Shown: positions 12,338 to 47,602 of the stretch, piece by piece | Layout: every line of letters begins with the position of its first letter | Position numbering within the stretch: the first letter of the stretch is position 1 | From: a virus | DNA length: 47,602 nucleotides | Strand: one strand, 5' to 3' | Virus record (IMG/VR): IMGVR_UViG_3300025141_000170 | Span: 1 to 47,602 of that record | Notes under the pieces: generated by a model | The model's input: only the letters and a program-made list of their open reading frames with translations | The model's database searches: none | Told to the model about the DNA's origin: nothing | Program-made: the position numbers and the translations under genes

Positions 12338-15300
12338 ATGGGATCATTTAAAACACTTGGTACGGCTCCAATAACGACGGATGCACGTGTTACAAAAGCA
12401 TTGTCATCGACAAGCATTAGGGTGTCATCATCCAAGTCCTCCACTTCATCGGAGAGATCAATTCCATTGTCAAAATCAAGTAAAAGATCATTAAAGGCTG
12501 CCGGCTTGACTGAAAATAGGCTTGAAACAATTGCTACAATTGATTTTAAACCGTTATATTCGGCAGGAAATTTGACTCTTGCTGGTGATTTATTTAATAA
12601 AAGAGTTCTTAAGCGAGCCAGCGAAATTGAACTTTTGATGGAGACCCTGACAGGGCTTGAAGAGTCAATGCCTGACGAACTTGCAGCAGCAGTTAACCAG
12701 TATAATTCATCACTTATAGCAACTGAGGCTGATTTTGCATTGTTAAAAACAATTGTTGTCTTACGCAGGTATGCTGAGTTAAGCACACAATTTATATCTT
12801 TTCTTGATGAGTATTCACCGAATGAAGAAATTCTACCTGCCGTTGCAGCGACATGGAACTCTGTGAAATGGCCAACGATGATGACTGGCATGACAGGTGT
12901 AAATTTTTTGAATTTTAATGAATGGCCAAAACAAGCATCAACAGTTTTAATGGGAAATCTATTAAGCGCACTCAATTGCACATCATATGGTCTATCACCA
13001 GCCGCCATTTCTGCTGGTGCATACCAGAACTGTGCCGGCAGCGATTGTGTGCTGACAAAGGTCCTTTACCCTGGTAGTGATGATATTGCCGCGCTTTATG
13101 GTTTAAGCTTCATCTCTCGGGACTTGACTTTATCAAGCGAGATGGCAAAAATTCGCGACGATGGGGAATATGATGAAGATTTTAAAACACTGATTGAGGA
13201 GGTTCTTGGATCAACATTTGCAACATCAACCATTAAGCAATCTGTGAAAAATTTAATGGCTAAATTTACTGGCCTTAATTCATTTTCTGGGGTCCGAACC
13301 GGTCTATCCGGTGAAATTGGTGTAGCAACCTCTCCAGTTACAACACTTCTTGCGGGTGCTGAGGCTGGTTTGTTTGGGGTTTTAGAGTACCCTTATTCGT
13401 CAACAAAATCAGTTTTGGTCACTGAATCAGCTCCTGTAGAGCTTGGTGTTACAACCACTGGGCTGATGGCACCAAAGTCTTTTAATAGTTTAGAACCACT
13501 GATTGATGATGCATTTATAGGCGATAACCTTTTGAATTTTGAGAAATATGATGAAGCCTCATCAAATCTAGTTGAAAAATGCAAGAATTTAAACACGTTT
13601 GGGAAAATCGGCTTCAGATTACTGGATTCTAAATTAGATGGTGGAAGTCTAAACACTGAAATTCCGCTTATTGCAGAGCAAAATCCCATCGCACCACAGT
13701 CAATTGGTGCTATTGCTTTAGATGTTTTTAGTAGAAAATTTGTTGAACCGGCTTCCCAGAGTCTGTACACACCTTTTTATGAATGGCTGACTCCAGAACA
13801 TGTCGCTTACACAAGAAATTATGCATGGGCATTAATGAGGGAAAATCCCGATCGAGCCAAAGCAATTGTAGGGGCATTTATTAAAGACATCGAAACCGGC
13901 TTTTTAACAGTTAGGGAACTTCCAGAATCTATCGAAGGAACGGGCCAGCTTGATGAATATGGTAGGGAGGTCGAAGGAACAGAAACTGTCAATGAGCTGA
14001 CATATGTTCTGCCTGAAACGGAAAGCATTGTGAATTTACTTGGCCGCAATACGTTTCTTAACGGTCAGCTTGTCCAACTGAACAATTATTACAAAGGTAT
14101 TGATATTTCAGATCCAAGCTGGATCCTCTCAAGTTATGTAAATTCTGCGATTGGATTTCCAATGATAAGAACAAATTTAGCAGTTCCTGCCGATGATGTT
14201 ATCTCCCTTTTTGGCAAGGTTCAAGCGGCAGGTGCCGACACCGATGAAGACGGGACGAGCTCCTCCACCGAAGCAATTACCGACCTTGATCTTCGGCTTA
14301 TTAATCCTATGTCTTGTGTTTACCGGGAGGTGGATTTCAGCGACTCTGCGATGAGCAGTTGGGCCGGTATGGGAATTCCTTTAAACCCACGAACGGGGCC
14401 GATGACGACCACCACCACGCTCGATTACTCGGATACGGCAATTCCTGTAAGCAATCATTGGCTTGGAACAAAGATCGTAGCTGCAGAAATTATAGATGCA
14501 GTTATGGAAGTCCTCCGGGCAACTGTCACACCATTTGCTGAAGTTGAAGCAACTGCGGATGGTGATACAATGTTTCCGCAGGTTTCTGGAATGAAGACTC
14601 CATACGGTAATGAGTCATCGTCAGCATGGGTTTACAGTGGCGTTGGTTATGATCAATTTCAAATGGACGCGTGGGTACCAACTGTTTTAGCTTGGAAAAA
14701 AGCATTTACTAGAGAAGCAGATGAAACAACTTTTTTGAGAGATGCAAAGATAAAAGATCACGCTGAGCGTATTATTGATATCTTTACACATTTAATGGAG
14801 CCGTATCGTTCCATCACTGTTAAAAAAACCTCGGTGAATGCCGCGGTGGATAGCACGACGGCTGCTGTTGGGCCTGGTGGGATATATGAACCACTGTGTG
14901 TAACTTTAAAATTTAATGAGGCTGAATTTGCAGCGCAGTATAGTGTGCTTACAGGCGACAAGTCTGGTGGTTCCGAGGCCGGTATTTTTCATCCCTCATT
15001 CATGAATGTTTTAGCTGGCACTGCTCCAAATATAACTGGCAAAATTCTTAATGGGACCTGGCCGCTGGCGGAAACTATAGACCCATTGACATCTGGAACT
15101 GGCTGGCCTCTTATATTTGCGCAATGGGGCGGATATCTTGATCAAGCGTGGGTTCAAGATCAATCTTTGTCACTGTTGTATGATTTGCTTGGTGAATATG
15201 CGACCCGAGTTGAAGGTTATAAGACCTCTTTTCTTGATATGTTAGAGGGTGATGAATCAGTTATTGGAGATTTTGTAAAGTCTTTAGTTGAAAATGGTGA

Positions 15301-16465
15301 TTCCGGTGTTGATGTAATTGAAAATCTTGGATTTGACCAGCTTGCGCTGAAACAGCTTGCGCTAGATGAAGAGCAAGGTGATGAAACAATGGGATATCTT
15401 CCAAATTTGTCAATAATTAGCGCAAATGAAGCCAGGAGTGTACGTACACTATGTGATAATTCTACGGTTAAATCCCCTGAGGCAGACAACGTAAAGGTAG
15501 TGTTTGTTGGCGTTCCAGCTGGCACTTTTGAAAAGCACGGAATTCAAGATTCATTTAAGCTCCGCGCAAGTTATGTTGATATAGAATATCCACAATTAGT
15601 TTTCAAACCCAAATATTATTCGTTTGATAAAAATTTATTTATTCTTCCAAGTGATATTGACAGTGCTACTCATACTACACTCACATCTATGCTGAATTCA
15701 ATGTCATTTTCAAAGATAAAATTTGAAATAAATGAATCAGAGGACAACACACCAGAAATTTCACTTTCAGATGATGTTGAGTCGGTTTCAACAACTTCAG
15801 TGTCTAGCGACGTTGAGGTTTATAAAAATTTATTAATATCTGAGCTTCTAAAGATTTATTATAGAATTGTTCTCGGCGTTAACATGTCAGAAATTTCATT
15901 CCCAACAACAGCAGAAGGTTTAGATCTTCCAGTTTCCGACGCAACACTTGAACTAGCCACATCAATGGCTGAACAGCTTGATGAAGTGTCAAGTTTTTCT
16001 GAAAGTGTTGCCGAGAACATTAAGGAAATGCTGTCTGACATTACAACATTTGAAAATCCTGATGATTTTATTTCTGGTGACATAACCGCAGTCGATTCAT
16101 CATTATTAAATGACATTGCAAATGCATATCAATCTAGATTGTTTTCTTCTGAAGTGATGCGATCCCGCGTTCTTTCTGCAAAAATGTTTGATCGGATTTA
16201 TGCAATTCCAGTTGATCCAGATGAATTTGAGATTATTCCACCTGGTGGTGCAGAGTTATATGACGCTGCCACCCCGGTTGAAATTTTTGATTATTATTAT
16301 AACGCTGGAATCATTGAGGGACTAACTGATGCAGGGGGTTCCACATCTTATAAATTATCATCGAGAAAAGCCGCTGAGGGAACTATGGCAATTGGAAAGG
16401 TTTCATTCATGCTTGTTTCTGGAGATGCTGAAACTCCAACAACAGAAGGATTATTTGGACTATGA
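12338..16465 (+). CDS. Very large virion-type protein of unknown function
   Basis: A 1375-aa protein, the longest in the window. I do not recognise a family. The N-terminus starts MGSFKTLGTAPITTDARV, which has the same pattern as MANFKTIGADDIQTSTSV in the protein at 19041, followed by a Ser/Lys-rich segment (about residues 24-50) and a helical segment. The middle is a mixed fold with many Trp and aromatic residues. Residues about 1125-1145 and 1180-1280 are acidic and Ser-rich or helical (SMAEQLDEVSSFSESVAENI). There are no transmembrane stretches of the kind expected in a tape measure protein. It overlaps the next gene by 4 bases (ATGA). A structural, probably baseplate-linked, role is inferred from neighbours only. 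Confidence 0.6.
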   Translation: MGSFKTLGTAPITTDARVTKALSSTSIRVSSSKSSTSSERSIPLSKSSKRSLKAAGLTENRLETIATIDFKPLYSAGNLTLAGDLFNKRVLKRASEIELLMETLTGLEESMPDELAAAVNQYNSSLIATEADFALLKTIVVLRRYAELSTQFISFLDEYSPNEEILPAVAATWNSVKWPTMMTGMTGVNFLNFNEWPKQASTVLMGNLLSALNCTSYGLSPAAISAGAYQNCAGSDCVLTKVLYPGSDDIAALYGLSFISRDLTLSSEMAKIRDDGEYDEDFKTLIEEVLGSTFATSTIKQSVKNLMAKFTGLNSFSGVRTGLSGEIGVATSPVTTLLAGAEAGLFGVLEYPYSSTKSVLVTESAPVELGVTTTGLMAPKSFNSLEPLIDDAFIGDNLLNFEKYDEASSNLVEKCKNLNTFGKIGFRLLDSKLDGGSLNTEIPLIAEQNPIAPQSIGAIALDVFSRKFVEPASQSLYTPFYEWLTPEHVAYTRNYAWALMRENPDRAKAIVGAFIKDIETGFLTVRELPESIEGTGQLDEYGREVEGTETVNELTYVLPETESIVNLLGRNTFLNGQLVQLNNYYKGIDISDPSWILSSYVNSAIGFPMIRTNLAVPADDVISLFGKVQAAGADTDEDGTSSSTEAITDLDLRLINPMSCVYREVDFSDSAMSSWAGMGIPLNPRTGPMTTTTTLDYSDTAIPVSNHWLGTKIVAAEIIDAVMEVLRATVTPFAEVEATADGDTMFPQVSGMKTPYGNESSSAWVYSGVGYDQFQMDAWVPTVLAWKKAFTREADETTFLRDAKIKDHAERIIDIFTHLMEPYRSITVKKTSVNAAVDSTTAAVGPGGIYEPLCVTLKFNEAEFAAQYSVLTGDKSGGSEAGIFHPSFMNVLAGTAPNITGKILNGTWPLAETIDPLTSGTGWPLIFAQWGGYLDQAWVQDQSLSLLYDLLGEYATRVEGYKTSFLDMLEGDESVIGDFVKSLVENGDSGVDVIENLGFDQLALKQLALDEEQGDETMGYLPNLSIISANEARSVRTLCDNSTVKSPEADNVKVVFVGVPAGTFEKHGIQDSFKLRASYVDIEYPQLVFKPKYYSFDKNLFILPSDIDSATHTTLTSMLNSMSFSKIKFEINESEDNTPEISLSDDVESVSTTSVSSDVEVYKNLLISELLKIYYRIVLGVNMSEISFPTTAEGLDLPVSDATLELATSMAEQLDEVSSFSESVAENIKEMLSDITTFENPDDFISGDITAVDSSLLNDIANAYQSRLFSSEVMRSRVLSAKMFDRIYAIPVDPDEFEIIPPGGAELYDAATPVEIFDYYYNAGIIEGLTDAGGSTSYKLSSRKAAEGTMAIGKVSFMLVSGDAETPTTEGLFGL

Positions 16466-18234
16466 CAATAGTGATTCCATCAGGAAGGGATGAGGAGTCC
16501 CGCGACAGCTCTATTAATTTTTTAACATTCCCATCAATATCAGCATCAATTTTTGAAGTTCCGGAACCAAAAGACATTGGTGGGAACTTTGTGTACAATT
16601 ATTTTCTCCAAGACGAACGCGAAAGCAGCGACACTTTTGTAAGCGAAGAACAGTTTAAGTTACATGGCAAAAAATATGCAAGGCAAGTGGAGATTTTTTT
16701 CGAGCCACTTAGCAATGTGATTCCAAACAATGATGTCATGTCAACGATTCAAATTAGTAACAGGCAAAAGCAATTATTACTCGAAAGAAATGTTGATAAA
16801 ATAACCAAAGAGACTGAGTTTACCTCAGGCCAAAATGTTTCGTTAAAACTTCAAGATACAACAGTAGCAACTGATTTACTAGCAAATATTGAAGCGCTTT
16901 TACTAAAAAAGAAAGTTGACACTTTTGCTTTATCACCAATGGAAACTGTGTTGCAATATTCATCACAAACTACGGCAAATTTAGACGGTCAAGAGATGTT
17001 AGATTCTGTAAATGTTGATGATTCAAACGAATATATAACAATAGATCCGGCAACTGGAGAAGAATTTGAAGTACAAAAATCAGGTGAGCTTGACAAATTA
17101 ACATTTAATATGAATGTGTCAAAGAGATTTGCTGGTGATGTCGCAACAACAGCTGTAAAAACACCGTTAAGCCCAACTGCTGAAATGTTTTCAGGATGTT
17201 TAAGTGAATTAATCGAGGAACAAAGTAAGTCAAGAAGAAATATTTCATCATGTTATGTAACAAGATCTAATTTTTTAGAAATGCTGAATCCCGTTCTGTT
17301 CTCTGAAGTTGCAACAGATACTGTATTTTTAGGCGGAAATACAATAATGGGTTATCACATTACAAGAGTAAGGACTGACGACGACACCGATATTGAGCAT
17401 TTTTTCATTACAAATGATACTGCAGATAATTTTGTAGACACAACGGTAATGTATGGATACACATATCAATATGCAATATCAGTCATTTATCTATTTAGGG
17501 TATTTGGTTTCCGTGCAGACCAACTTGTATTTGCCGATATTTTAATTGAGTCACGCGAGTCACCGTCGATTAACATTGCTTGTAAAGAAATAATTCCGCC
17601 CCAAGCACCAGATGATTTAAGATTTTATATGTTACAAAGTGAACAGCTTATAGTTGAGTGGGCATTCCCAATCAATAGAAGTAAAGATATAAAAAGGTTT
17701 CAAGTTTACAGGCGATCTGATATCAATCTTCCATTTTTGTTGCTTGGAGAGCTTGATTTTGATGACAGTACGATTCAGACTGATCGATCTGAAGGGATTT
17801 ATGATACCCTTGTAACGAAGATTGATACTCCTCGAACATATTTTAATGACCCTTACTTTGATCTAGATTCAAATTTTATTTATGCAGTTTGTGCTGTTGA
17901 TGCACATGATTTGTCATCTCCGTATAGTGAACAGTTTAGGGTATGGTTTAATAAGGTTGATGGAAAGCTAGAAACTGAATTTATTTCAGAGAAAAATGCA
18001 CCCAAGCCATACCCAAATTTTTTATTAAGACAAGAGTTATTAGAGAACATTGTAAAAGATTCAAATCATTCAGCACTTAGCTGTTATTTTGATCCTGAAT
18101 ATTTAAAAGTGGTCAATGGTGACGGTCAAGATTTAAATTTTTTACAAAGATCGGAAGATAACGTTTCATATAAACTGCAGTTAATTCATTTGAATTTTCA
18201 ACAAAGTGTTATTGCGGATATTAACGTTAAATAA
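16462..18234 (+). CDS. Putative structural protein with fibronectin-III-like domain
   Basis: A 590-aa protein starting inside the previous stop (ATGA). Residues about 378-480 (PPQAPDDLRFYML, EWAFPINRSKDIKRFQVYRR, YAVCAVDAHDLSSPYS) form a clear fibronectin-III-like pattern with the usual late Tyr-x-Val/Ala-x-Ala core and following polar turn. The N-terminal region has charged helical stretches (QKQLLLERNVDKITKETEF). No catalytic motif is seen. Coupling to the 1375-aa gene suggests that the two products work in the same virion substructure. Confidence 0.6.
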   Translation: MTIVIPSGRDEESRDSSINFLTFPSISASIFEVPEPKDIGGNFVYNYFLQDERESSDTFVSEEQFKLHGKKYARQVEIFFEPLSNVIPNNDVMSTIQISNRQKQLLLERNVDKITKETEFTSGQNVSLKLQDTTVATDLLANIEALLLKKKVDTFALSPMETVLQYSSQTTANLDGQEMLDSVNVDDSNEYITIDPATGEEFEVQKSGELDKLTFNMNVSKRFAGDVATTAVKTPLSPTAEMFSGCLSELIEEQSKSRRNISSCYVTRSNFLEMLNPVLFSEVATDTVFLGGNTIMGYHITRVRTDDDTDIEHFFITNDTADNFVDTTVMYGYTYQYAISVIYLFRVFGFRADQLVFADILIESRESPSINIACKEIIPPQAPDDLRFYMLQSEQLIVEWAFPINRSKDIKRFQVYRRSDINLPFLLLGELDFDDSTIQTDRSEGIYDTLVTKIDTPRTYFNDPYFDLDSNFIYAVCAVDAHDLSSPYSEQFRVWFNKVDGKLETEFISEKNAPKPYPNFLLRQELLENIVKDSNHSALSCYFDPEYLKVVNGDGQDLNFLQRSEDNVSYKLQLIHLNFQQSVIADINVK

Positions 18235-24308: not shown

Positions 24309-27300
24309 ATGATAAAAATAGCGCACCTTGCCGACATTCATTTTCGAGGGCTGTCTAGGCACTCTGAGTATCGAAAGGCCTTTACGGATTTTTTTGAACA
24401 GTGCGATGAGGTACAGCCAGATCATATTGTAATATCTGGCGACATTGTACATTCAAAGACTCATGGGATATCTCCTGAGCTTGTGGATATTTTAACGTGG
24501 TGGTTTAAGCAAATGGCAAACCGTGCACCGACACATATTATCCTTGGGAATCATGATGGCTTGATGAGTAATAAAGATCGACAAGATGCAATAAGCCCAA
24601 TAGTTAATGCAATTGATCATGAAAATTTGCTTTTATATAAGAAATCAGGAAATTATTTTTATGACAAATTATGTTTTAATGTTTTTTCTTGTTTCGATGA
24701 GGAAGGGTGGGGTTCTGTTAAGCCTGTTGAAGATTATATAAATATTGCTTTGTATCATGGTGCAGTTAGGGGAAGTGAGATAGAAAGTGATTGGTCAATA
24801 GAGGGTGAGGTAGAAGTAAATTTATTTGATGGATTCGACTTTGCAATGCTTGGTGACATTCACAAAAGACAGTATTTAAACAGCAAGAAAACAATTGCGT
24901 ATCCGGGTTCAACAATTCAACAGAATTATGGTGAGGGTCAAGTTAAAGGTTGGTTACTATGGGAGATTAATAATAAAGATTCTTTTAGCAGCAGATTTAT
25001 AGAGATAAAAAATAGACAGCCTTTTGTGACCCTGGAGTGGTCAAAGATAAAAACAACAGAAATTGATGATGGATTTATCCCTGAAAATTCTAGAGTGCGC
25101 TTGAGACACCCACAGGAGGTTGCAAGAGCGGAATTAAAACAGCTGAAAGCATTGCTGAGGGAAAAGTTCCATACTACGGAGATTGTGACGCGTGTTGAGT
25201 CAGAACAACAACAGAATACAATTAAGTTATCAAATAATTCTATTGTTGATTTAAGAGACCACACAACGTTATTATCTCTAATTCGAGATTTTCATGAAGA
25301 CAAAAATTATTCAGACGAAACATGGGCGCAAATTTCAAGCAGCTTAAAAAAATATTGTGAAATGATTCCAAAAGCAGACTCAGCGCGTGGAACAAGGTGG
25401 ACAATTGATCGGATGAAATTTGACAATACATTTGGTTATGGTGAGGGGAATGTGTTAAATTTTTCAGAACTTTCTGGAATTGTGGGTTTATTTGGAAAAA
25501 ACCGCGTTGGAAAAAGTTCGATACCAGGTGCGATAAGCTATGGTTTATTTAATTCATCTGATAGAGGATCTTTGAAGAACCTCCATATAATCAACACTAG
25601 GAAAAATTTCTGTTCGGTTGAGGTTGACCTGTCAGTCAATGGAAAGAAATATCGTGTTCAACGACAGTCTGTGAAAAAAACCTCAAGGGCAGGTAAGGTA
25701 AGTGCATCAACTCATTTGAATGTGTTTGAAATTGATTCAGATGGTGAAATTATAAAAGACGAATCAGGTGAACAAAGAAGGGATACTGACGCCGTATTAA
25801 GATCATTGATTGGTGACAAAACAGAATTCTTTTTAACAACTTTTGCATCACAAGGACAGATTAATGCATTTATAAAAGAGAGAGCAACATCAAGAAAGGC
25901 AATTTTGGCAAATTTTTTAGATTTAGCTGTTTTTGAGTCGTTACATGAGTTAATTAACAGAGATGCTGTACAGGTGAAGGCAACACTATCAAACATTCCA
26001 GAAAGAAATTGGTCTTCATTGATAGCTGAAATAGAAGAAACAATAGTCGAAAGTAAAGACCGTATCGAGTCAGCTGAAACTGAAATGTCTAGCCTGCAGT
26101 CGCGATTGGCTGGTTTACGTCTTGAGCTTGATGAAATAAATCCATCAGGTGTAGCTACACAATATGAGGTTGATTCAAAAAAACAAAAACTATGTTTGAT
26201 TCAGGATCGTGTTATAACCATCGAACATAAGTTAAGTGAAAAAAATCTTTTATTGTCTTCTCAACACCGTAAAATTGAAAAGGCAGAACTGATAGAAAGG
26301 ACATTTCCGCTAAAAGAGCTTGAAGAAAAATTGAGCGAACAAAGAGACATAGAGAGAAATTTGCTTAATTTAAAGCATTCATTGAATTCTGAGAAGGGCT
26401 TATTAAAGCGACAAAAAGAATCAGCAAAAACGCTACAAAGTGTCCCTTGTGGTACAACTTTTCCTACATGTAAGTTTATTAAAAAGTCTCATAGAAATGC
26501 AAAGCTTATTGACAGGCAAATTGAACTCGTGAAAGAAACAACAAAATCAGTAAATGCTTTACAAAAGTCGTTTGATAATTTGCTGGAGCAAGATTTAGAC
26601 AAGAAAATAATTCGCTACAGAGATCTAATGAAAAAAGCGTCTACAATGAGAATAGAAAAGACAGAAATTGAGATGGAGCTACTTGATTTACAAAGGGAAA
26701 AGAGTGACCTGGCTGAATCGCAGATTCTCTTGTCAGATCAAATATCGGTTATGTCTTCACAATTAATTACAGAATCAGGTGACGCAGACACAACACAAAT
26801 GGTTATTAAGATCGGTGAAATTGAAACTGAAATCAAGCAAAACGATGCTTTACGCTTGTCACTGAGTGAAAATATAGGGAAAGACAAAACGAGGCTTGTA
26901 CAGGTTAAAGAAGAGAGATCACAGTATGAAAGAACACTGGGCAAATGGAGGGTTTATGACGCTCTCCTCACGTCTACCAATAAAAGAGGTGTGCCCTTAT
27001 TTGTCTTAAACAGCAGGTTACCGAAGATAAACGCTGAGATTGCAAAAATTCTAGGAGACAGCACTAATTTTACTATTGATTTGGAAGCACCGGTTGATTC
27101 TAATGAAATGAATATATTCATTGACTATGGCGACTCAAGGAGGCCAATTGAGTGTGCTTCTGGGATGGAAAAAATGCTATCATCTTTAGCAATTAGGGTC
27201 GCATTGATTAATGTGTCAACACTTCCGAAATCAGATATTCTTATAATTGATGAAGGGTTTGGTTCGCTTGATGACACAAATGTTCAGGCATGCAGTAGAT

Positions 27301-27431
27301 TGTTGGAAAGTCTAAAGGATCATTTTAAAAGTATATTTATAATTTCACATGTTGAGACAGTCAAGGATAATGTCGATAACTTGATAGAGATAACTAAAAA
27401 GGGGGCTGATTCTTATGTTTATGCGATTTGA
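24309..27431 (+). CDS. Fused SbcD-SbcC (Mre11-Rad50-type) recombination nuclease
   Basis: A 1040-aa single chain that combines what T4 makes as gp47 and gp46. The N-terminal metallophosphatase has D9 and H11 (HLADIHF), D45 (SGDIVHS), N81-H82 (LGNHDG), H150 (YHGAVRG) and H185 (LGDIHKR). From residue about 380 follows a Rad50-type ABC ATPase: Walker A G396-S404 (GKNRVGKSS), a long coiled coil (about 570-890) with a hook at C714-x6-C721, the signature region SGMEKMLSSLAIRVAL, Walker B ILIIDEGFGSLDD (D981/E982) and the H-loop His at 1014. It should process double-strand ends for recombination-dependent replication. ORF integrity over 3.1 kb and intact motifs in both halves argue for a real fusion. 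Confidence 0.9.
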   Translation: MIKIAHLADIHFRGLSRHSEYRKAFTDFFEQCDEVQPDHIVISGDIVHSKTHGISPELVDILTWWFKQMANRAPTHIILGNHDGLMSNKDRQDAISPIVNAIDHENLLLYKKSGNYFYDKLCFNVFSCFDEEGWGSVKPVEDYINIALYHGAVRGSEIESDWSIEGEVEVNLFDGFDFAMLGDIHKRQYLNSKKTIAYPGSTIQQNYGEGQVKGWLLWEINNKDSFSSRFIEIKNRQPFVTLEWSKIKTTEIDDGFIPENSRVRLRHPQEVARAELKQLKALLREKFHTTEIVTRVESEQQQNTIKLSNNSIVDLRDHTTLLSLIRDFHEDKNYSDETWAQISSSLKKYCEMIPKADSARGTRWTIDRMKFDNTFGYGEGNVLNFSELSGIVGLFGKNRVGKSSIPGAISYGLFNSSDRGSLKNLHIINTRKNFCSVEVDLSVNGKKYRVQRQSVKKTSRAGKVSASTHLNVFEIDSDGEIIKDESGEQRRDTDAVLRSLIGDKTEFFLTTFASQGQINAFIKERATSRKAILANFLDLAVFESLHELINRDAVQVKATLSNIPERNWSSLIAEIEETIVESKDRIESAETEMSSLQSRLAGLRLELDEINPSGVATQYEVDSKKQKLCLIQDRVITIEHKLSEKNLLLSSQHRKIEKAELIERTFPLKELEEKLSEQRDIERNLLNLKHSLNSEKGLLKRQKESAKTLQSVPCGTTFPTCKFIKKSHRNAKLIDRQIELVKETTKSVNALQKSFDNLLEQDLDKKIIRYRDLMKKASTMRIEKTEIEMELLDLQREKSDLAESQILLSDQISVMSSQLITESGDADTTQMVIKIGEIETEIKQNDALRLSLSENIGKDKTRLVQVKEERSQYERTLGKWRVYDALLTSTNKRGVPLFVLNSRLPKINAEIAKILGDSTNFTIDLEAPVDSNEMNIFIDYGDSRRPIECASGMEKMLSSLAIRVALINVSTLPKSDILIIDEGFGSLDDTNVQACSRLLESLKDHFKSIFIISHVETVKDNVDNLIEITKKGADSYVYAI

Positions 27432-37697: not shown

Positions 37698-39635
37698 ATG
37701 TCGAAGTTTTCACTTGAGCAGTTGACGGAGGGTATTCGCCAGAGACATCTGGGCGCCCAAAACCGTCAACTCGTAGAGAAGTGGTCCAGAACAGGACTGC
37801 TTCGAGGCCTCACTGGCCAAAATCGTGAAGTAATGTCAACACTCCTTGAAAATCAAGCCGCACAGGTTCTTCGTGAGCAAAGCTCACTTAGTACAGGTGG
37901 TGGTGCTGTTGTCTCTTCTGGAGACATGAGCGGTTTTCAAAACGTTGCATTTCCAATCGTTCGTAGAGTCTTCGGAGGCCTTGTTGCCAACGAGCTCGTT
38001 TCAGTCCAGCCTATGAGCTTGCCATCCGGCCTGCTTTTTTATCTTGACTACACATATGGTACCTCTGAGGGTGCCGCTGGTCCTGGCGGTAGCGCTCAGT
38101 ATCAGAGTGGTTCGTCAATTTATGGTTCGCCAGCCGGTAAGGGCATCCGTTCGGGTGCACTTGGTCAAGGTGGACAGTATAACCTTGCAGGTTCTGGGTA
38201 TTCCAGAGTATATGCAACAATGGCCCTTGACGGCTCTAATATGATTCTGGCTTCCGGTGCTTTCGGTAGTGGTGCCACGCTGTCAGCCATGAACGACGCT
38301 GGACCGTTCCTCAGAACTACTGGTTCTGATGGTAGGCTTCTGCTGTTTGATCCTCAGTTAACAACAGAGATTGAAGATCAGAATGCTAAGGCTGGTGCAG
38401 GACAAACTGGTGCTTCATACCAGGCTGTGTTCATGTATTCTAGAGTTCTGACTGGTTCGTCAGCTTCAGGTGTGAATAGAGTTGAAGAGTCGCTCATCAA
38501 GAACATTGTTCTTTCTGATACAGATAGTGCAACTCCAACAACTGGTATTCGAGTTATTTCCAGTGACATCCAGGATGGAAAGGGTATCCTTAACATTCGT
38601 CGCTTGAACGAGCTTGGTACATATAGTTCTGGAAAGTTCAGTCCAAATGCACTTGCTGATATTACCGCTGCAACTACTGTTGTTAAGATGATTGTTTCAG
38701 GAACAACTGGTGGTTCTACTGCTGGTGTTGATGCCGGTGGTGACGGTGTTGGTTGGGAAGATATTAGTGTATCTTATCCAGTTGCAGACCGTCGTGTATC
38801 TGGTAATGATGGTGATTCATTGACCCTTTCGGCCTTTGAGTCTAACTTTGCCACTTCACCAAGTCCAGAGATTCCAGAGATTGATATCAAGGTTGAGTCA
38901 ATTGCTGTAACAGCTCAGACCCGTAAGCTTCGTGCTCGTTGGTCACCAGAGCTTGCTCAGGATCTTAACGCTTATCACAGCCTTGACGCTGAGGTTGAGC
39001 TTACACAGATTCTTTCTGAGCAGATTGCACTTGAAATCGATCGTGAGATTCTCAATGATCTTGTGACTGGTGCCGATACGCGCTTCTATTGGAGTCGTTC
39101 CCCTGGTGATTTCATCAACAAGAGAACTGCTGCTGCAGATGTTTCCGGTGCAACATTCCGAGGAACAGTCCGCGAGTGGTATGAGACTCTTATTGAGACG
39201 ATCATTGATGTTGGTAACGAGATTCATCGCAAGACGCTTCGTGGCGCTGCAAACTTTATCGTGGTTTCACCTGAAGTTGCAACAATCCTCGAGGCTTCAG
39301 TGATGTATCGTCCTTCGTATAGTCTTGACGCTGAAGGTCAGGTTGGTACACCGTTTACAATTGGCGCTGAGCAGGTCGGTACTCTTAGTAACCGCTTTAC
39401 AGTCTACAAAGACCCTTATTTCCCAAGAAATCAGGTTCTCGTTGGCTACAAGGGTGGAAGCTATCTTGAGACCGGGTATGTTTATGCTCCATATGTCCCA
39501 CTGATTGTTACTCCGACAATCTTTGCTCCAGAAGACTTCACTCCTCGTAAGGGCGTGATGACTCGGTATGGTAAGAAGATGGTTCGTAGTGATTTCTATG
39601 GAACAGTTACATGCTTGAACATGGATATTATCTAA
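37698..39635 (+). CDS. Major capsid protein, T4 gp23-like
   Basis: A 645-aa protein building the head lattice (HK97 fold). LLENQAAQVLRE (residues 49-60) and VRRVFGGLVANELVSVQPM parallel the gp23 N-arm and first core strand. DLNAYHSLDAEVELTQILSE and EIDREILNDL mark the conserved spine-helix region. RKGVMTRYGKKMV near the end also fits. It is longer than T4 gp23 (521 aa), with the extra residues mostly before residue 420. A gp21-type cleavage site may lie after E60 (L-R-E), by analogy with T4, which is inference. Its codon use favours CGT/CGC for Arg, unlike most neighbours, as expected of an abundant product. Confidence 0.92.
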   Translation: MSKFSLEQLTEGIRQRHLGAQNRQLVEKWSRTGLLRGLTGQNREVMSTLLENQAAQVLREQSSLSTGGGAVVSSGDMSGFQNVAFPIVRRVFGGLVANELVSVQPMSLPSGLLFYLDYTYGTSEGAAGPGGSAQYQSGSSIYGSPAGKGIRSGALGQGGQYNLAGSGYSRVYATMALDGSNMILASGAFGSGATLSAMNDAGPFLRTTGSDGRLLLFDPQLTTEIEDQNAKAGAGQTGASYQAVFMYSRVLTGSSASGVNRVEESLIKNIVLSDTDSATPTTGIRVISSDIQDGKGILNIRRLNELGTYSSGKFSPNALADITAATTVVKMIVSGTTGGSTAGVDAGGDGVGWEDISVSYPVADRRVSGNDGDSLTLSAFESNFATSPSPEIPEIDIKVESIAVTAQTRKLRARWSPELAQDLNAYHSLDAEVELTQILSEQIALEIDREILNDLVTGADTRFYWSRSPGDFINKRTAAADVSGATFRGTVREWYETLIETIIDVGNEIHRKTLRGAANFIVVSPEVATILEASVMYRPSYSLDAEGQVGTPFTIGAEQVGTLSNRFTVYKDPYFPRNQVLVGYKGGSYLETGYVYAPYVPLIVTPTIFAPEDFTPRKGVMTRYGKKMVRSDFYGTVTCLNMDII

Positions 39636-41975: not shown

Positions 41976-43235
41976 ATGAGCACATTTCAACAAACACATG
42001 CAAGCAATAAGCAGTTGGGGATTTCAAATGATCCTGACTTTACCATTCCATCATGTACTGTTGAGGATGTAGATCGGGCAATTTTTAGCTTGTTTGATAA
42101 AGATTTAGATTTGTTTTACAAACATGAAGGTTCCATTGTGAGGGTCCCTATTGTTTTTGCAACTGGTGAAAGATTTGCAATACTTTCTAGAAATAAACCT
42201 CTGAGGGATGCGAATGACACTTTAATTTTACCTTTGATATCAATAGCCCGTGGCGCCGTGTCAAAAGAAATGGCAAAAGGGACAAGCACAAACCAAACTG
42301 CGCCTGTTGTTATTAAGAGAAGAATTAGCAAAGAAGACCCGATATATCAAAGGATCATAAATAAGGAAGATCTACAGAACCAAGATGATAGGGCTCATTC
42401 ATCACATCAAATCGGCAACCGTGGTATGGGAACTGAACCGGGAATGCTCTCCTCACGCAGGGGCGCGGTCCGGGAAAATTCAGCATATCGTACTGGAAGA
42501 TTGCTCGAAAAATCTGGGAATAATAATATATACGAAATTTTTGAGTTACCATGTGTGAAATATTACACTGCAACATATGACATTACTATATGGGCACAAT
42601 ATACACAACAAATGAATGATCTTTTAATGTCAATCATTAATTCATCACATACAAATTCAAAAATTACATTTAGAATTGAATCCGACAAAGGCTATTATTT
42701 TGTTGCTTATTTAGACGGTGATTTCAGTGCGGATAATAATTTCACAGACTTTACTGACTCCGAAAGAATTGTCAAATATAGTTTTTCAATGTCGGTTCCG
42801 GCATATATTTTGAACCCTGATTATGAAGGGTCTAGAAATGAAATTAGAAGATTTATTTCTGCACCACAGATCTCTTTTGATATGACAGCAGTTTATGCAC
42901 CATTAACTGAAAAGCAAATTGTTCCTGTTGCGAGCGGCAAGACAAAGGATTATATACTTGATGATTTAAATTCAGAAGCCACTCCATTACCGGGTCAGGC
43001 AATCGGAACCAATGCAGCAACAAGCCAGGGCGACTATTATGATTCGGCAACTGTGGGTCAAACACGCTCTGGCAGAACCCGGGTAGAGGTGGTGAGAGAA
43101 TACAAGGATCCAATTACTGGAGAGCCTCAAAGCGAGGTGTTACCATTCAAACAAAGAAACGAACGCAAAGGTGAAACTGTTTACCAAGCGCAACTAACTG
43201 ACGATTTAGGCACTATAACTGTGGTGCCGGAGTAG
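41976..43235 (+). CDS. Tail completion / proximal sheath stabiliser, gp15-like
   Basis: A 419-aa protein. The central part YYTATYDITIWAQYTQQMND, followed by FRIESDKGYYFVAYLDGDF and RIVKYSFSMSVPAYILNP, matches the pattern I know for T4 gp15-type proteins, which cap the tail and hold the sheath. T4 gp15 is 272 aa; the extra residues are at the C-terminus (about 300-419), acidic and Gly/Thr-rich. The next gene is the sheath, as in T4. Confidence 0.7.
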   Translation: MSTFQQTHASNKQLGISNDPDFTIPSCTVEDVDRAIFSLFDKDLDLFYKHEGSIVRVPIVFATGERFAILSRNKPLRDANDTLILPLISIARGAVSKEMAKGTSTNQTAPVVIKRRISKEDPIYQRIINKEDLQNQDDRAHSSHQIGNRGMGTEPGMLSSRRGAVRENSAYRTGRLLEKSGNNNIYEIFELPCVKYYTATYDITIWAQYTQQMNDLLMSIINSSHTNSKITFRIESDKGYYFVAYLDGDFSADNNFTDFTDSERIVKYSFSMSVPAYILNPDYEGSRNEIRRFISAPQISFDMTAVYAPLTEKQIVPVASGKTKDYILDDLNSEATPLPGQAIGTNAATSQGDYYDSATVGQTRSGRTRVEVVREYKDPITGEPQSEVLPFKQRNERKGETVYQAQLTDDLGTITVVPE

Positions 43236-43276: not shown

Positions 43277-43282
43277 AAGGAG
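43277..43282 (+). promoter_or_regulatory. Strong ribosome-binding site of the sheath gene
   Basis: AAGGAG, 7 bases before ATG 43290. High translation is expected of a sheath present in hundreds of copies. Confidence 0.6.
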
Positions 43283-43289
43283 CTCTATA

Positions 43290-46200
43290 ATGGCTGAACA
43301 AACTTTTCGCTCCCCGGGGTTTTTTGAAAGAGAAATAGACCTCTCGGGACAGAGCGTACAACCAACTGGCACACCTGCGGGTGTTATAGGAACATCAGAA
43401 AAAGGGCCGGCATTTATCCCAGTAACTGTTGGCTCCGAAGAAGATTTCATCGCGAGATTTGGAGAGCTGGATCCAAAACGCGCTGGACCATATGCTGTTC
43501 ATGAATATTTGACACACAAAGATGCCGTTACATACCTTAGGGTCTTGGGTGCAGGTTCTAATGATACTGAAGCAGAGATGTCATCAACAAAAACTTATGG
43601 AATTGTTTCGAAGGCTGGCTTCAAGGTAAATGGTACGGTAGAAACACTTGATATTTCAAACCCAGTTATCTATAATTTGGGTGCGCCACAATTTTTAAGT
43701 GCCATGCATTATGTGTCAACGTCTGTTGAGTCAATGGCAATGCCTGAATTTACTGATAACAATTCATTTCCTGACATTGCAGCAGGTAACGGAACAGTGC
43801 GGGTATTAAGGGCTGTAATTTTTCCAACTACTGGTTCTAGAATTTGTATAACTGGTGCATCGGGCTCTGTTGGTGCATCGTCTCTTGGCGGACCTGGTGG
43901 TCAACAGACTGAACTTGTGATTAATGATGATCTTGCCGGTTTTGGAAAATTTAGGATAATTGTTTCATCATCTGCAGGAACTGGTTTTTCTAATGATGAT
44001 AGTATTGCGGGCGCAAGAATTTATACTGCATCGTTAAATCCTACGAGTGATGATTACATTGCGAGGGTTTTAAACACAGATCCATCAGAATTCCAATCAA
44101 AACAACATTTGTTGTACTTAGATTTTGCTGTTGAAGATGAAATTGCTCCTGTCGACGACCGTGTAGGAGAAACAAATACAATTCTTATATCATCAGGGTC
44201 TGGTACAACCAATACCTTGGGGGGACAAAGTGATGTATATGGTAATTCATTCGGAAGGTTTGATACAAGGTACACAACACCTACCACGCCACTTGTTATA
44301 TCACAACCTTATGGTACCACTGAATATAATCTCTTTAAGTTTGAAACAATTTCAGATGGTGCTTATGCAAACAATAGAGTGAAGGTAAGTATTACAGGCC
44401 TTCGAGCTTCTACTGATAAAAATAATCCTTGGTCCACATTTGAAGTCCAGGTGAGAAGATTTGGTGACACCGATGAGGCAAAAGAGATTATTGAGACATT
44501 TCCGAATGTTAACTTAAATCCCAATGATGAGCGCTTCCTTGCACGTGTTGTTGGTGACTACAAACCTCGCTTTAATTTCGATTCAATAGACTTGGACGAA
44601 CAGAGAATTGTTGTTACTGGAAAATATCCAAATATGAGTAGGCATGTTAGGGTTGTGATGCAACAGGCTGTGTATGATGGAAAGGTTCCAAGGGACGTTA
44701 TGCCATTCGGCTTTAGAGGAATTCCAGTTCTTAAAACAGCAGATACTCTCACAGATGACCCAACGGAAGCCTTGACGGATAGAAATGGTGATAATATCGG
44801 GTCGGCTTTGAAAACTCCAGGAGATGGCTTTGGTGTTAGGGTGAAATCTCTTGTCGGCAATACTTTGACAGGATCAATCCTTCCTCCTCTCCCACTGAGA
44901 TTTAAGGTTACCAAGGGCAATGTACCAGAAGCCGCCGGTCCTTATGTCGGTTATCCATCTTCTGTTGAGCGCGCTGATTCTCGTTTATATTGGGGTGTTA
45001 AGTTTGAACGATGTCCTGATATTAATAATGTCGCAAATGCAGGATTGAATCCAAATGCTGGTTCTCTTCCAAATGCAACAGTTGCTGCATACACAAAATT
45101 TCAAGGTATTGCTGGCCTTGATAACTTGGTGACAGGCTCAGGAGCTGATTTATTTAATGACAATAAATTTACACTTTCAAGAGTTGCATTGTCTACAACA
45201 TCAATGGCAATGTTAACCGGTTCTGCTGCCGAGCACATGCTTGAAGCTGCATACATTCGGAACAAATATCCTGATGCCAAGACATATACAATTAATGATG
45301 GTGTATTATCTGGTCGTTTTACCTTGGCAACCCTTGTTGCAAGCTCGTCAGTGAAATTTAATAGATTTACCAATTATTCTAAGTTTACACTTCCATTCTA
45401 TGGTGGCTTCGATGGTGTTAATATTCTAGATAAAGATATCAGGTATCAAAATGATAGAGCAGCTGCTACTGACACTGGTGGAAAGGCTGCAGATTCAATC
45501 ACTGGCGGTTTGGGATTAAAAGGCACCGATGATGGTTCAATGATGGGTAAGGGTCCACAAAATAATTCTGTGTTTAGCTACAACAAGGCTCTTAGAATTA
45601 TGACCGATCCTTTGACTGTACGCCATAATTTGCTCGCAGTCCCAGGTATTAGAGATCCTTATATTACAAATACTGCAATGAATGATGTGAAGGCATATTC
45701 AATGGCCATGTATGTAATGGATATTCAACACTACGATGAAGATTCCAACAGACTATTTGTTGATGACGCAGCCAGACCTGATGTTAGAGAAACAGCAGAA
45801 CAGTTTGAAGGCAGGAGAGTTGATAATAATTACGTCGCGACATATTTCCCTGACGTGTTTGTTGAAGACGCAACAAATAACAAGCCAGTATTTGTACCTG
45901 CATCAGTAGCTGCATATGGTGCGCTATCATACAGTGATAGTGTTTCATTCCCATGGTTTGCCCCTGCAGGTTTTAACCGAGGAGCGCTTGGATTTGTTAA
46001 GAATACTGAAGTGAGATTAACGTCTGCAGACCGTGATGAGTTGTATGATGCAAGAATTAATCCAATAGCTAATTTTCCAAACGGAGGTTATGTTATATTC
46101 GGGCAGAAAACGTTACAGATTACAAAGAGCGCCTTGGATCGTGTAAACGTCCGTAGAATGTTGCTCGAAGTAAAACGACGCGTTGTCGGAGTGGCAGAGA

Positions 46201-46451
46201 CATTACTTTTCGAGCCAAACAATGCAAATACAAGAGCAAAATTCATAGGTCAGGTTACACCGATCTTGGCATTAATTCAATCACAATCTGGTATTGAAAA
46301 ATTCTCTGTTGTGATGGATAACACAAATAATACAGCAGAAGACGTTGAACAGAATAAGCTGAATGGTAGAATTGTTGTTGTTCCAACAAGGGCAATTGAG
46401 TATATTGCCATTGACTTCATTGTTACGAATGCTGGGGTTGAGTTTGCATAA
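43290..46451 (+). CDS. Contractile tail sheath protein, gp18-like
   Basis: A 1053-aa protein forming the contractile sheath. The start (RSPGFFEREIDLSGQSVQPT, PAGVIGTSEKGPAFIP) is typical of sheath N-termini. The C-terminal region VNVRRMLLEVKRRVVGVA, LFEPNNANTRAKF and VPTRAIEYIAIDFIV carries the beta strands that link sheath subunits. T4 gp18 is 659 aa, so about 400 residues are extra, mainly in the middle (about residues 90-850), probably surface domains. Its last base is the first base of the next sheath-type gene (TAATG). Confidence 0.93.
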   Translation: MAEQTFRSPGFFEREIDLSGQSVQPTGTPAGVIGTSEKGPAFIPVTVGSEEDFIARFGELDPKRAGPYAVHEYLTHKDAVTYLRVLGAGSNDTEAEMSSTKTYGIVSKAGFKVNGTVETLDISNPVIYNLGAPQFLSAMHYVSTSVESMAMPEFTDNNSFPDIAAGNGTVRVLRAVIFPTTGSRICITGASGSVGASSLGGPGGQQTELVINDDLAGFGKFRIIVSSSAGTGFSNDDSIAGARIYTASLNPTSDDYIARVLNTDPSEFQSKQHLLYLDFAVEDEIAPVDDRVGETNTILISSGSGTTNTLGGQSDVYGNSFGRFDTRYTTPTTPLVISQPYGTTEYNLFKFETISDGAYANNRVKVSITGLRASTDKNNPWSTFEVQVRRFGDTDEAKEIIETFPNVNLNPNDERFLARVVGDYKPRFNFDSIDLDEQRIVVTGKYPNMSRHVRVVMQQAVYDGKVPRDVMPFGFRGIPVLKTADTLTDDPTEALTDRNGDNIGSALKTPGDGFGVRVKSLVGNTLTGSILPPLPLRFKVTKGNVPEAAGPYVGYPSSVERADSRLYWGVKFERCPDINNVANAGLNPNAGSLPNATVAAYTKFQGIAGLDNLVTGSGADLFNDNKFTLSRVALSTTSMAMLTGSAAEHMLEAAYIRNKYPDAKTYTINDGVLSGRFTLATLVASSSVKFNRFTNYSKFTLPFYGGFDGVNILDKDIRYQNDRAAATDTGGKAADSITGGLGLKGTDDGSMMGKGPQNNSVFSYNKALRIMTDPLTVRHNLLAVPGIRDPYITNTAMNDVKAYSMAMYVMDIQHYDEDSNRLFVDDAARPDVRETAEQFEGRRVDNNYVATYFPDVFVEDATNNKPVFVPASVAAYGALSYSDSVSFPWFAPAGFNRGALGFVKNTEVRLTSADRDELYDARINPIANFPNGGYVIFGQKTLQITKSALDRVNVRRMLLEVKRRVVGVAETLLFEPNNANTRAKFIGQVTPILALIQSQSGIEKFSVVMDNTNNTAEDVEQNKLNGRIVVVPTRAIEYIAIDFIVTNAGVEFA

Positions 46452-47602
46452 TGTCCGGTCCGGGTGTTTCTACATTTCATGGTTCTTCTTTAACTGACAG
46501 TGGAATCACCGTTGGCGGCCCTGGGGCAGGTGTAATTGGCACCGCCCCAAGAGGTCGAGCCTTTGTTCCTATTTCAGTTGCTGATCTCCAAAGCTTTATT
46601 ACTTCATTTGGTCCGATATTGGGAAAAAGTTTCGGACAGGTTGCTGCATCGATGTGGCTTCAGCATTCGGAAGGTTGTACATATACCCGTCTTCTCGGAA
46701 TCGGTGACGGCAAGAAGCGCATAATCTCGGATACTACAAAGGCTGATGGTGAGAACCTTCCTGCCGGTGCAGTGAAAAATGCTGGTTTTGTTGTTGGTTC
46801 TCGAATGACAGGTTCTGTGAACGGTTTCCTGGGGAATAATCCATATGCGACGGAAGGCTCAATACTTGGTCGAACATATTTGCTTGGTGCATTCATGTCC
46901 GAGTCAAATGGTTCAAGGGTTTTCACAGATGCTGGAATTCAATCATCTGTAGCCTTTGCTAAAGCTACATGGACTCCTGTAGATACAGACCCAGCAAGTT
47001 ATATTAGTGGGTTATTGACAATTACAGACTATCGGAACACTGAGAAAACATATTTTTTCTGTAGTGGTGACAATGGAGGTACACTGACTGGTTCTCCAGC
47101 AACTGGCGACGATGCCGGCGACTTCGGTGGGGCTGCTGGAAGAATATGTGTCCAGCTTGGTTCACTAACAAAACCAGTTCATAATTATGTTAACTATTTA
47201 CATCAAGCCATAGATTCTACCTTAGGGCATAATGCTGGTACTGACAACAAAAGCATCACCCTCACTGACAACGTCTCTCATTTGACTCTGGAGCAAAATG
47301 GGACAGGACCTGCCCATAATCGCAGTCTTTCAAGGGATATAGTAACAAGTGACAGTGTTTATACTATGTCTGGTTTTTCTGGTGGTGTTCCGATTTACGC
47401 AACTGGCAGGTGGACTCCTGTAGACACTAATCCAGCAAGTTATAGAGCAGGTAATCTTACAATTCAAGACTACCGCGGTGTTAATAAAACATATTTTTTC
47501 TGTGATGGCGACAATGGTGGCACGCTGACTGGTTCTCCAACAACTGGCGATAATGCTGGAGATTATGGCGGTGCTGCGAATTTGGTATGTGTCCAGCTGG
47601 GG
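46451..47602 (+). CDS. Second tail sheath-like protein (cut by window edge)
   Basis: The frame starts at ATG 46451, overlapping the sheath stop (TAATG), and stays open for all 384 codons to the window end. The N-terminus (SGPGVSTFHGSSLTDSGITV, GAGVIGTAPRGRAFVP, SFITSFGPILGKSFGQV, CTYTRLLGIGDGKK) aligns step for step with the sheath gene upstream, so it is a sheath paralogue. After residue 173 it has two copies of a 147-codon unit with WTPVDT.PASY, KTYFFC.GDNGGTLTGSP and AGD.GGAA. The C-terminus is missing, so whether the sheath-linking strands are intact cannot be seen. Confidence 0.85.
   Translation, partial: MSGPGVSTFHGSSLTDSGITVGGPGAGVIGTAPRGRAFVPISVADLQSFITSFGPILGKSFGQVAASMWLQHSEGCTYTRLLGIGDGKKRIISDTTKADGENLPAGAVKNAGFVVGSRMTGSVNGFLGNNPYATEGSILGRTYLLGAFMSESNGSRVFTDAGIQSSVAFAKATWTPVDTDPASYISGLLTITDYRNTEKTYFFCSGDNGGTLTGSPATGDDAGDFGGAAGRICVQLGSLTKPVHNYVNYLHQAIDSTLGHNAGTDNKSITLTDNVSHLTLEQNGTGPAHNRSLSRDIVTSDSVYTMSGFSGGVPIYATGRWTPVDTNPASYRAGNLTIQDYRGVNKTYFFCDGDNGGTLTGSPTTGDNAGDYGGAANLVCVQLG
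46970..47160 (+). repeat. Sheath-paralogue internal repeat, copy 1
   Basis: This segment encodes WTPVDTDPASYISGLLTITD and continues through KTYFFCSGDNGG to CVQLG. It matches copy 2, which begins 441 bases (147 codons) later, at protein and largely at DNA level. Confidence 0.8.
47411..47601 (+). repeat. Sheath-paralogue internal repeat, copy 2
   Basis: This segment encodes WTPVDTNPASYRAGNLTIQD through KTYFFCDGDNGG to CVQLG. The window ends at the matching end of copy 1, so further copies may follow. Confidence 0.8.

Follow-up and report, generated by a model that had tools for sequence, protein, structure and literature searches.

How a contractile sheath is started and stopped, and how uniform its rings are, is known mostly from phages with one sheath protein and from the AFP and PVC particles. 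The window analyzed here (the whole stretch of DNA, an IMG/VR virus record 47,602 bases long) ends in two overlapping reading frames that both resemble tail sheath genes, which raises the question of what the second of them encodes and which part its product could play in the tail. A sequence-only reading had suggested a minor sheath or a decorated variant. These were the right options, but the canonical second sheath gene of such phages, called B in the following, was missed: the second frame is better described as a third paralogue, called C, that in relatives lies between the first sheath gene (A) and B. The sheath of the phage in the window is probably made of at least two related proteins and, by comparison with its relatives, of three.

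Sheath gene A and its neighborhood

Gene A (43290 to 46451, plus strand) encodes 1053 residues and matches PF17482 (E 6e-7, above the cut-off), PF04984 (E 4e-6), and phrog_23 (E 1e-57). It contains both the sheath C-terminal domain and the subtilisin-like domain of the gp18 family, and by these matches its product is a T4-type tail sheath protein. The gene is preceded by the ribosome-binding site AAGGAG (43277 to 43282, plus strand), 7 nt 5' of the ATG. Its N-terminal donor arm (residues 1 to 26, 43290 to 43367, plus strand; MAEQTFRSPGFFEREIDLSG) shows 89% identity among the A proteins of four C-bearing phages, and the C-terminal tail, AIEYIAIDFIVTNAGVEFA and its neighbor, is encoded at 46389 to 46448 on the plus strand. 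The protein is 71% identical to the A sheath of contig L002 (BLASTP).

Upstream of A, a putative Gp15-like tail sheath stabilizer (41976 to 43235, plus strand) is recognized by a weak match (PF16724, E 4e-4, below the cut-off) and by the same position in relatives. T4-type head genes are found in the window as well (terminase, portal, prohead protease, and capsid), including the gene of the major capsid protein gp23 at 37701 to 39635 on the plus strand (PF07068, E 6e-80). A single reading frame of 1040 residues at 24309 to 27431 combines a calcineurin-like phosphoesterase region with an SMC/SbcC-type ATPase region, for which T4 has separate genes (47 and 46, respectively).

The second reading frame and its relatives

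The second frame (46451 to 47602, plus strand) provides the first 384 residues of C and has no stop codon before the window ends. As the sequence-only reading had stated, its ATG overlaps the TAA of A, with 1 base shared (TAATG). The same reading had aligned the first 80 residues of both proteins in order. The N-termini are indeed homologous (BLASTP, 33% identity over 118 residues, E 5e-12), but they do not align from residue 1: the similarity is clear only from near GVIGT, and the arm of A has no good counterpart in C. The sheath N-terminal part of C (46451 to 46969, plus strand), starting with MSGPGVSTFHGSSL.. and devoid of the usual donor arm, is 51% identical to the C protein of L002 over 179 residues. 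That both genes belong to the sheath family was confirmed through the full-length C proteins of L002 and L023, which match phrog_23 (E 1e-34 and 2.5e-30, respectively); their matches to PF17482 (E 3e-3 and 1e-4) are both below the cut-off. A collagenase match of the second frame (PF01752, E 0.19) was rejected as chance.

With the N-terminal 173 residues of the second frame, 18 viral contigs were retrieved, and the middle sheath gene of L002 added two; an alignment of A sheaths as query brought 80 contigs, and reading frames were then sorted by A, B, and C HMMs. Nearly all of the about 90 uncultured contigs carry a tandem pair of A then B, with both genes complete at 43 loci and 39 loci cut at the contig end. 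Exactly two sheath genes are present in 22 of the 24 larger records, those of 320 and 257 kb included, a count in which some insert-bearing sheath genes appear as two matches. The A-B order also occurs in three MAG contigs. C immediately follows A in five contigs (the window, L002, L022, L023, and L024). It is complete in L002, L022, and L023, where B starts 56 to 59 nt after C, and is cut short inside the gene in L024 and in the window. In all five, C starts exactly at the stop codon of A with the 1-nt TAATG overlap, and its protein begins with MSGPG, MPSPG, or MPGPG. As the window stops at residue 384 of C, the hairpin and tail of its C and the gene that follows are read from these relatives, by which B should lie beyond the right edge. 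An exact 30-nt probe from near this edge found no match in viral_contigs.

Some of the retrieved loci have peculiarities of their own. The C gene of L024 (3192 to 6302) turns leucine-rich-repeat-like near the contig end (..IIPNTVIIIEELAFHSCKSLTHLTIGDSVTTI..), and the contig is perhaps chimeric. Sheath A of L057 (5266 to 8263) is broken into a frame of 946 residues and an overlapping one of 97 residues, probably through a sequencing-error frameshift. In two lineages, a minus-strand gene of about 550 residues lies between sheath B and the tube gene (16435 to 18081 in L023, 8625 to 10274 in L009); its start is zinc-finger-like (MTSTRFKCPTCDF..), and it possibly encodes a homing endonuclease. In L099, a further sheath-like gene with an altered arm (MTVKFNSPGVSAQDLG..) follows B (15356 to 15805), and the contig ends within it.

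In a maximum-likelihood tree, A and B form mostly separate groups. The C proteins are monophyletic (100) on a long stem branch and are joined to the B of the same lineage (97), and the A proteins of the five C-bearing contigs are also monophyletic (100). The simplest history that fits these groupings is a single gain of C, through a duplication of B in this sublineage.

Two simpler accounts of the second frame have to be weighed here. It might be the plain B of an A-B pair whose N-terminus has diverged, given that it directly follows A and that its N-terminal part is 46 to 48% identical to B sheaths. This is very improbable, as the HMM score is 221 for C versus 157 for B (and 53 for A), and the MSGPG start and the TAATG overlap match the four other C genes, whereas A and B in a pair are separated by a median of 40 nt and B there carries the canonical arm. 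By these comparisons, the second frame is the extra paralogue C and not the canonical second sheath. Decay of C as a duplicate, or its origin as an artifact of assembly, is hardly credible either, although its long stem branch and the odd sequence at the end of the C gene in L024 could point to this. The reading frames are intact in L002, L022, and L023, and pN is 0.27 to 0.31 versus a pS of 0.72 to 0.75, values by which C is under purifying selection. A chimeric A-C assembly was rejected because the identical junction recurs in five contigs, which stem from different samples.

Arms, tail, and hairpin

Structures of contractile sheaths show subunits joined through an N-terminal arm, a C-terminal tail, and an acceptor hairpin. 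In the extended E217 sheath, these three make the only contacts between subunits, and the tail terminator contributes a strand that occupies the top-ring hairpin (PMC10329688). The profile alignment to T4 gp18 spans all three regions. A weak structure model of the B sheath of L023 (mean pLDDT 50) places strands at residues 997 to 1004, 1019 to 1027, and 1034 to 1040, in that order and with moderate confidence, and B resembles T4 gp18 in fold (Foldseek E 5e-14).

Regional identities were calculated with C from L002, L022, and L023 and with B from L023. The N-terminal arm is 62% identical between A and B and 19% between C and B, and the C-terminal tail 65% and 33%, respectively, with 7 to 8 residues missing from C. 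The hairpin is 65% identical between C and B and 35% between A and B; for the rest of the protein, the values are 43% and 35%. The canonical N-terminal donor arm, present in A and B, is found in none of the five C proteins, that of the window included. Behind the P-T-R/K motif, A has mostly 19 to 20 residues, B 15 to 21, and outgroup sheaths 19 to 21; the three complete C proteins, all from relatives, have 11. The acceptor beta-hairpin before the tail is kept in these three. The high hairpin identity, the low identity of arm and tail, and the short tail therefore show that C retained the socket, whereas its hooks have been lost or shortened. In terms of the protein, C is, as judged from the relatives, a sheath paralogue that has kept the core and the acceptor hairpin, has lost the N-terminal arm, and has a shortened C-terminal tail. 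The sequence-only reading had named missing C-terminal linking strands as an outcome that would speak against its sheath assignment; the shortened tail and the lost N-terminal arm go halfway toward this, but the retained hairpin does not. In length, C falls short by only a few residues (about 5 at the N-terminus and 7 to 8 at the C-terminus), and its shorter arms might still be able to pair.

Another sheath relative, T, is very diverged and lies directly after the tube gene in L075 (11109 to 14474), L081 (8062 to 11376), and L079 (10124 to 11620). Where complete, T has 1104 to 1121 residues, and it is without the usual N- and C-terminal arms. Judged by these sequences, arm-abnormal sheath relatives arose at least twice in this phage group, as C and as T.

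The genes also differ in their translation signals. In C-bearing phages, an AAGGAG or AGGAG motif lies 7 nt ahead of the ATG of A and of B. C has only GGAG at 13 nt, and the C gene of the window has GAG at 8 nt. C starts on the stop codon of A and lacks a well-positioned ribosome site, so that less of it is probably produced, its translation being coupled to that of A and weaker, which would deliver a low dose.

The inserted repeat

Behind its sheath part, the C gene of the window carries a repeat whose copies start at 46970 and 47411, a spacing of 441 nt or 147 codons. Copy 1 (46970 to 47410, plus strand) is complete and sits in the loop after DAGIQ. Copy 2 (47411 to 47602, plus strand) reaches the window end after 64 codons, so that the two 147-codon copies described in the sequence-only reading are a real repeat of which the second is present only in part. 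Over the 192 nt compared, the copies share 73% DNA identity and 49 of 64 residues (77%), and the self-match (E 9e-36 by BLASTP in windows) is far beyond chance. Their differences fall 14/10/28 on the three codon positions, and pN (0.19) is lower than pS (0.53); both copies have therefore evolved as coding sequence. The Ig-like or lectin-like fold proposed for the unit was not supported: it has no Pfam or PHROG match, and an AF2 model of the second frame (mean pLDDT 38.6) is too poor for use.

The insertion loop lies between (S/T)DAGIQ and PI(L/V)RG. Without an insert, the stretch from AGI to RG has 7 to 25 residues in B and C, among them the C proteins of L022 and L023. It measures 136 to 164 residues in B and C of L002 and in B of L007, L011, L012, L013, L038, L039, and L083, and it reaches about 750 residues in the 1794-residue B of L033. 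As a sequence query, the repeat unit found no relative at E 1e-3. An HMM of the unit, built from the window, L007, L012, and L013, matches A of L052 (E 5.9e-14) and B of L106 (E 1.5e-11), neither of which is part of the HMM. Copy 1 of the window ends in GFSGGVPI, similar to the sheath sequence that follows the insert in B of L106 (GFSGGDSSTVPIVRGV), which suggests that the duplication of the repeat carried a few sheath residues along. In L091, a B sheath of 1475 residues (13205 to 17632) contains about four diverged copies of the inserted repeat; the large inserts of other B sheaths (up to the 1794-residue protein of L033) have no repeats detectable by BLASTP self-comparison in windows. We read the repeat as a probable surface domain that B and C carry in one particular loop and that presumably points outward; several relatives have a single copy. 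Inserted domains that range from about 100 to 750 residues are accommodated by this sheath loop.

A possible role for C

We give about even chances to a three-gene operon, A-C-B, in which C is a minor, acceptor-only subunit that perhaps belongs to an end ring. The window would then end within the sheath operon of an uncultured phage of the T4 type. A and B, both with linking arms and the acceptor hairpin, would form most of the contractile sheath. C, derived from B and left with core, hairpin, and a short tail, would allow A and B to dock onto it but could not extend the lattice normally. If the arms run to the ring below as in E217, such an acceptor-only subunit could take up the arms of the ring above but hand none down, which would place it in an end ring, with the baseplate side as the simplest choice, or at a break of the lattice. 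The C protein of the window would additionally carry at least two inserted domains that probably face outward. Against an end ring, one may object that without arms it would have to hold the baseplate by other means. The position, stoichiometry, low copy number, and virion presence of C are what we infer from the genes. In general terms, the third paralogue of a three-paralogue phage sheath would receive the arms of its neighbors and donate none, thereby capping or punctuating the lattice, a statement to which we assign somewhat less than an even chance.

C could instead be an ordinary lattice subunit, interspersed with A and B over the length of the tail, that displays its inserts (to bind weakly to host surfaces, for example), with its altered arms using other partners. 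Its retained sheath core and hairpin agree with this, and inserts in the same loop of B and the unit in A of L052 make display a general theme of the sheaths in this group. The insert-free C proteins of L022 and L023, however, indicate that display is not a constant function of C, whereas the loss of the arm and the weak translation start are constant, and we consider a mixed lattice possible but clearly not probable. It is unlikely that C acts outside the mature tail as an assembly factor or decoy, for instance, by limiting polysheath formation. A kept acceptor, lost donors, and low-level coupled translation would suit such a factor, but the full sheath core, over 1000 residues long, is conserved, more than a decoy would seem to require. 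A point against the acceptor-only minor subunit comes from known minor sheaths: Pvc3, Pvc4, and Afp3 align with the profile almost as far as their C-termini and therefore do not have the pattern of C.

Comparison with known systems

For duplicated or triple phage tail sheath genes, a literature search with few subscription journals covered returned only PaBG-type reports; within the same scope, no phage with three sheath genes in tandem and no sheath paralogue devoid of arms was found described. The Pseudomonas jumbo phage PaBG has two sheath paralogues derived from duplication, which are 38% identical and both part of the structural proteome (Kurochkina 2018, cited in PMC7412058). Two sheath paralogues by gene duplication, A and B, are likewise found in nearly all contigs here. 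The PaBG genes (gp76 and gp213, about 58 kDa each) are not adjacent, and the account cited mentions no third, arm-less member.

With T4 gp18 (PF04984/PF17482), the sheaths share the fold and the C-terminal domain (sequence-profile match to PDB 9mkb at E 1e-43), and in the relatives their genes are likewise flanked by a gp15-like gene and the tube gene. T4, however, has one sheath gene of 659 residues, whereas two or three tandem paralogues of about 1000 to 1200 residues are found here. Three sheath proteins per particle are known from the extracellular injection systems AFP (Afp2-4), PVC (Pvc2-4), and PlPVC1, which are matched by the profile. These are bacterial particles that lack heads and have smaller sheaths, and the profile also matches the C-termini of most of these sheaths, whereas the window contains capsid and packaging genes of the T4 type.

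The 484-kb uncultured phage LR756508 has two nearby sheath genes, the first of which (3825 to 6299 in L020) is without the usual N-terminal arm. Its genes are about 1 kb apart, however, the first keeps its C-terminal tail, and the tree position is outside the clades of A, B, and C. By sheath and capsid, Mel-JY01 (Microcystis) and immuto (Flavobacterium) rank among the closest cultured relatives and, unlike the phages described here, have one sheath match per genome; the sheath of Mel-JY01 has an ordinary SPG-type arm and a full tail. A large group of uncultured phages that has two sheaths throughout, with a sublineage whose third sheath is hook-less but keeps its socket, offers a natural experiment on which of the arms a contractile sheath needs at which place.
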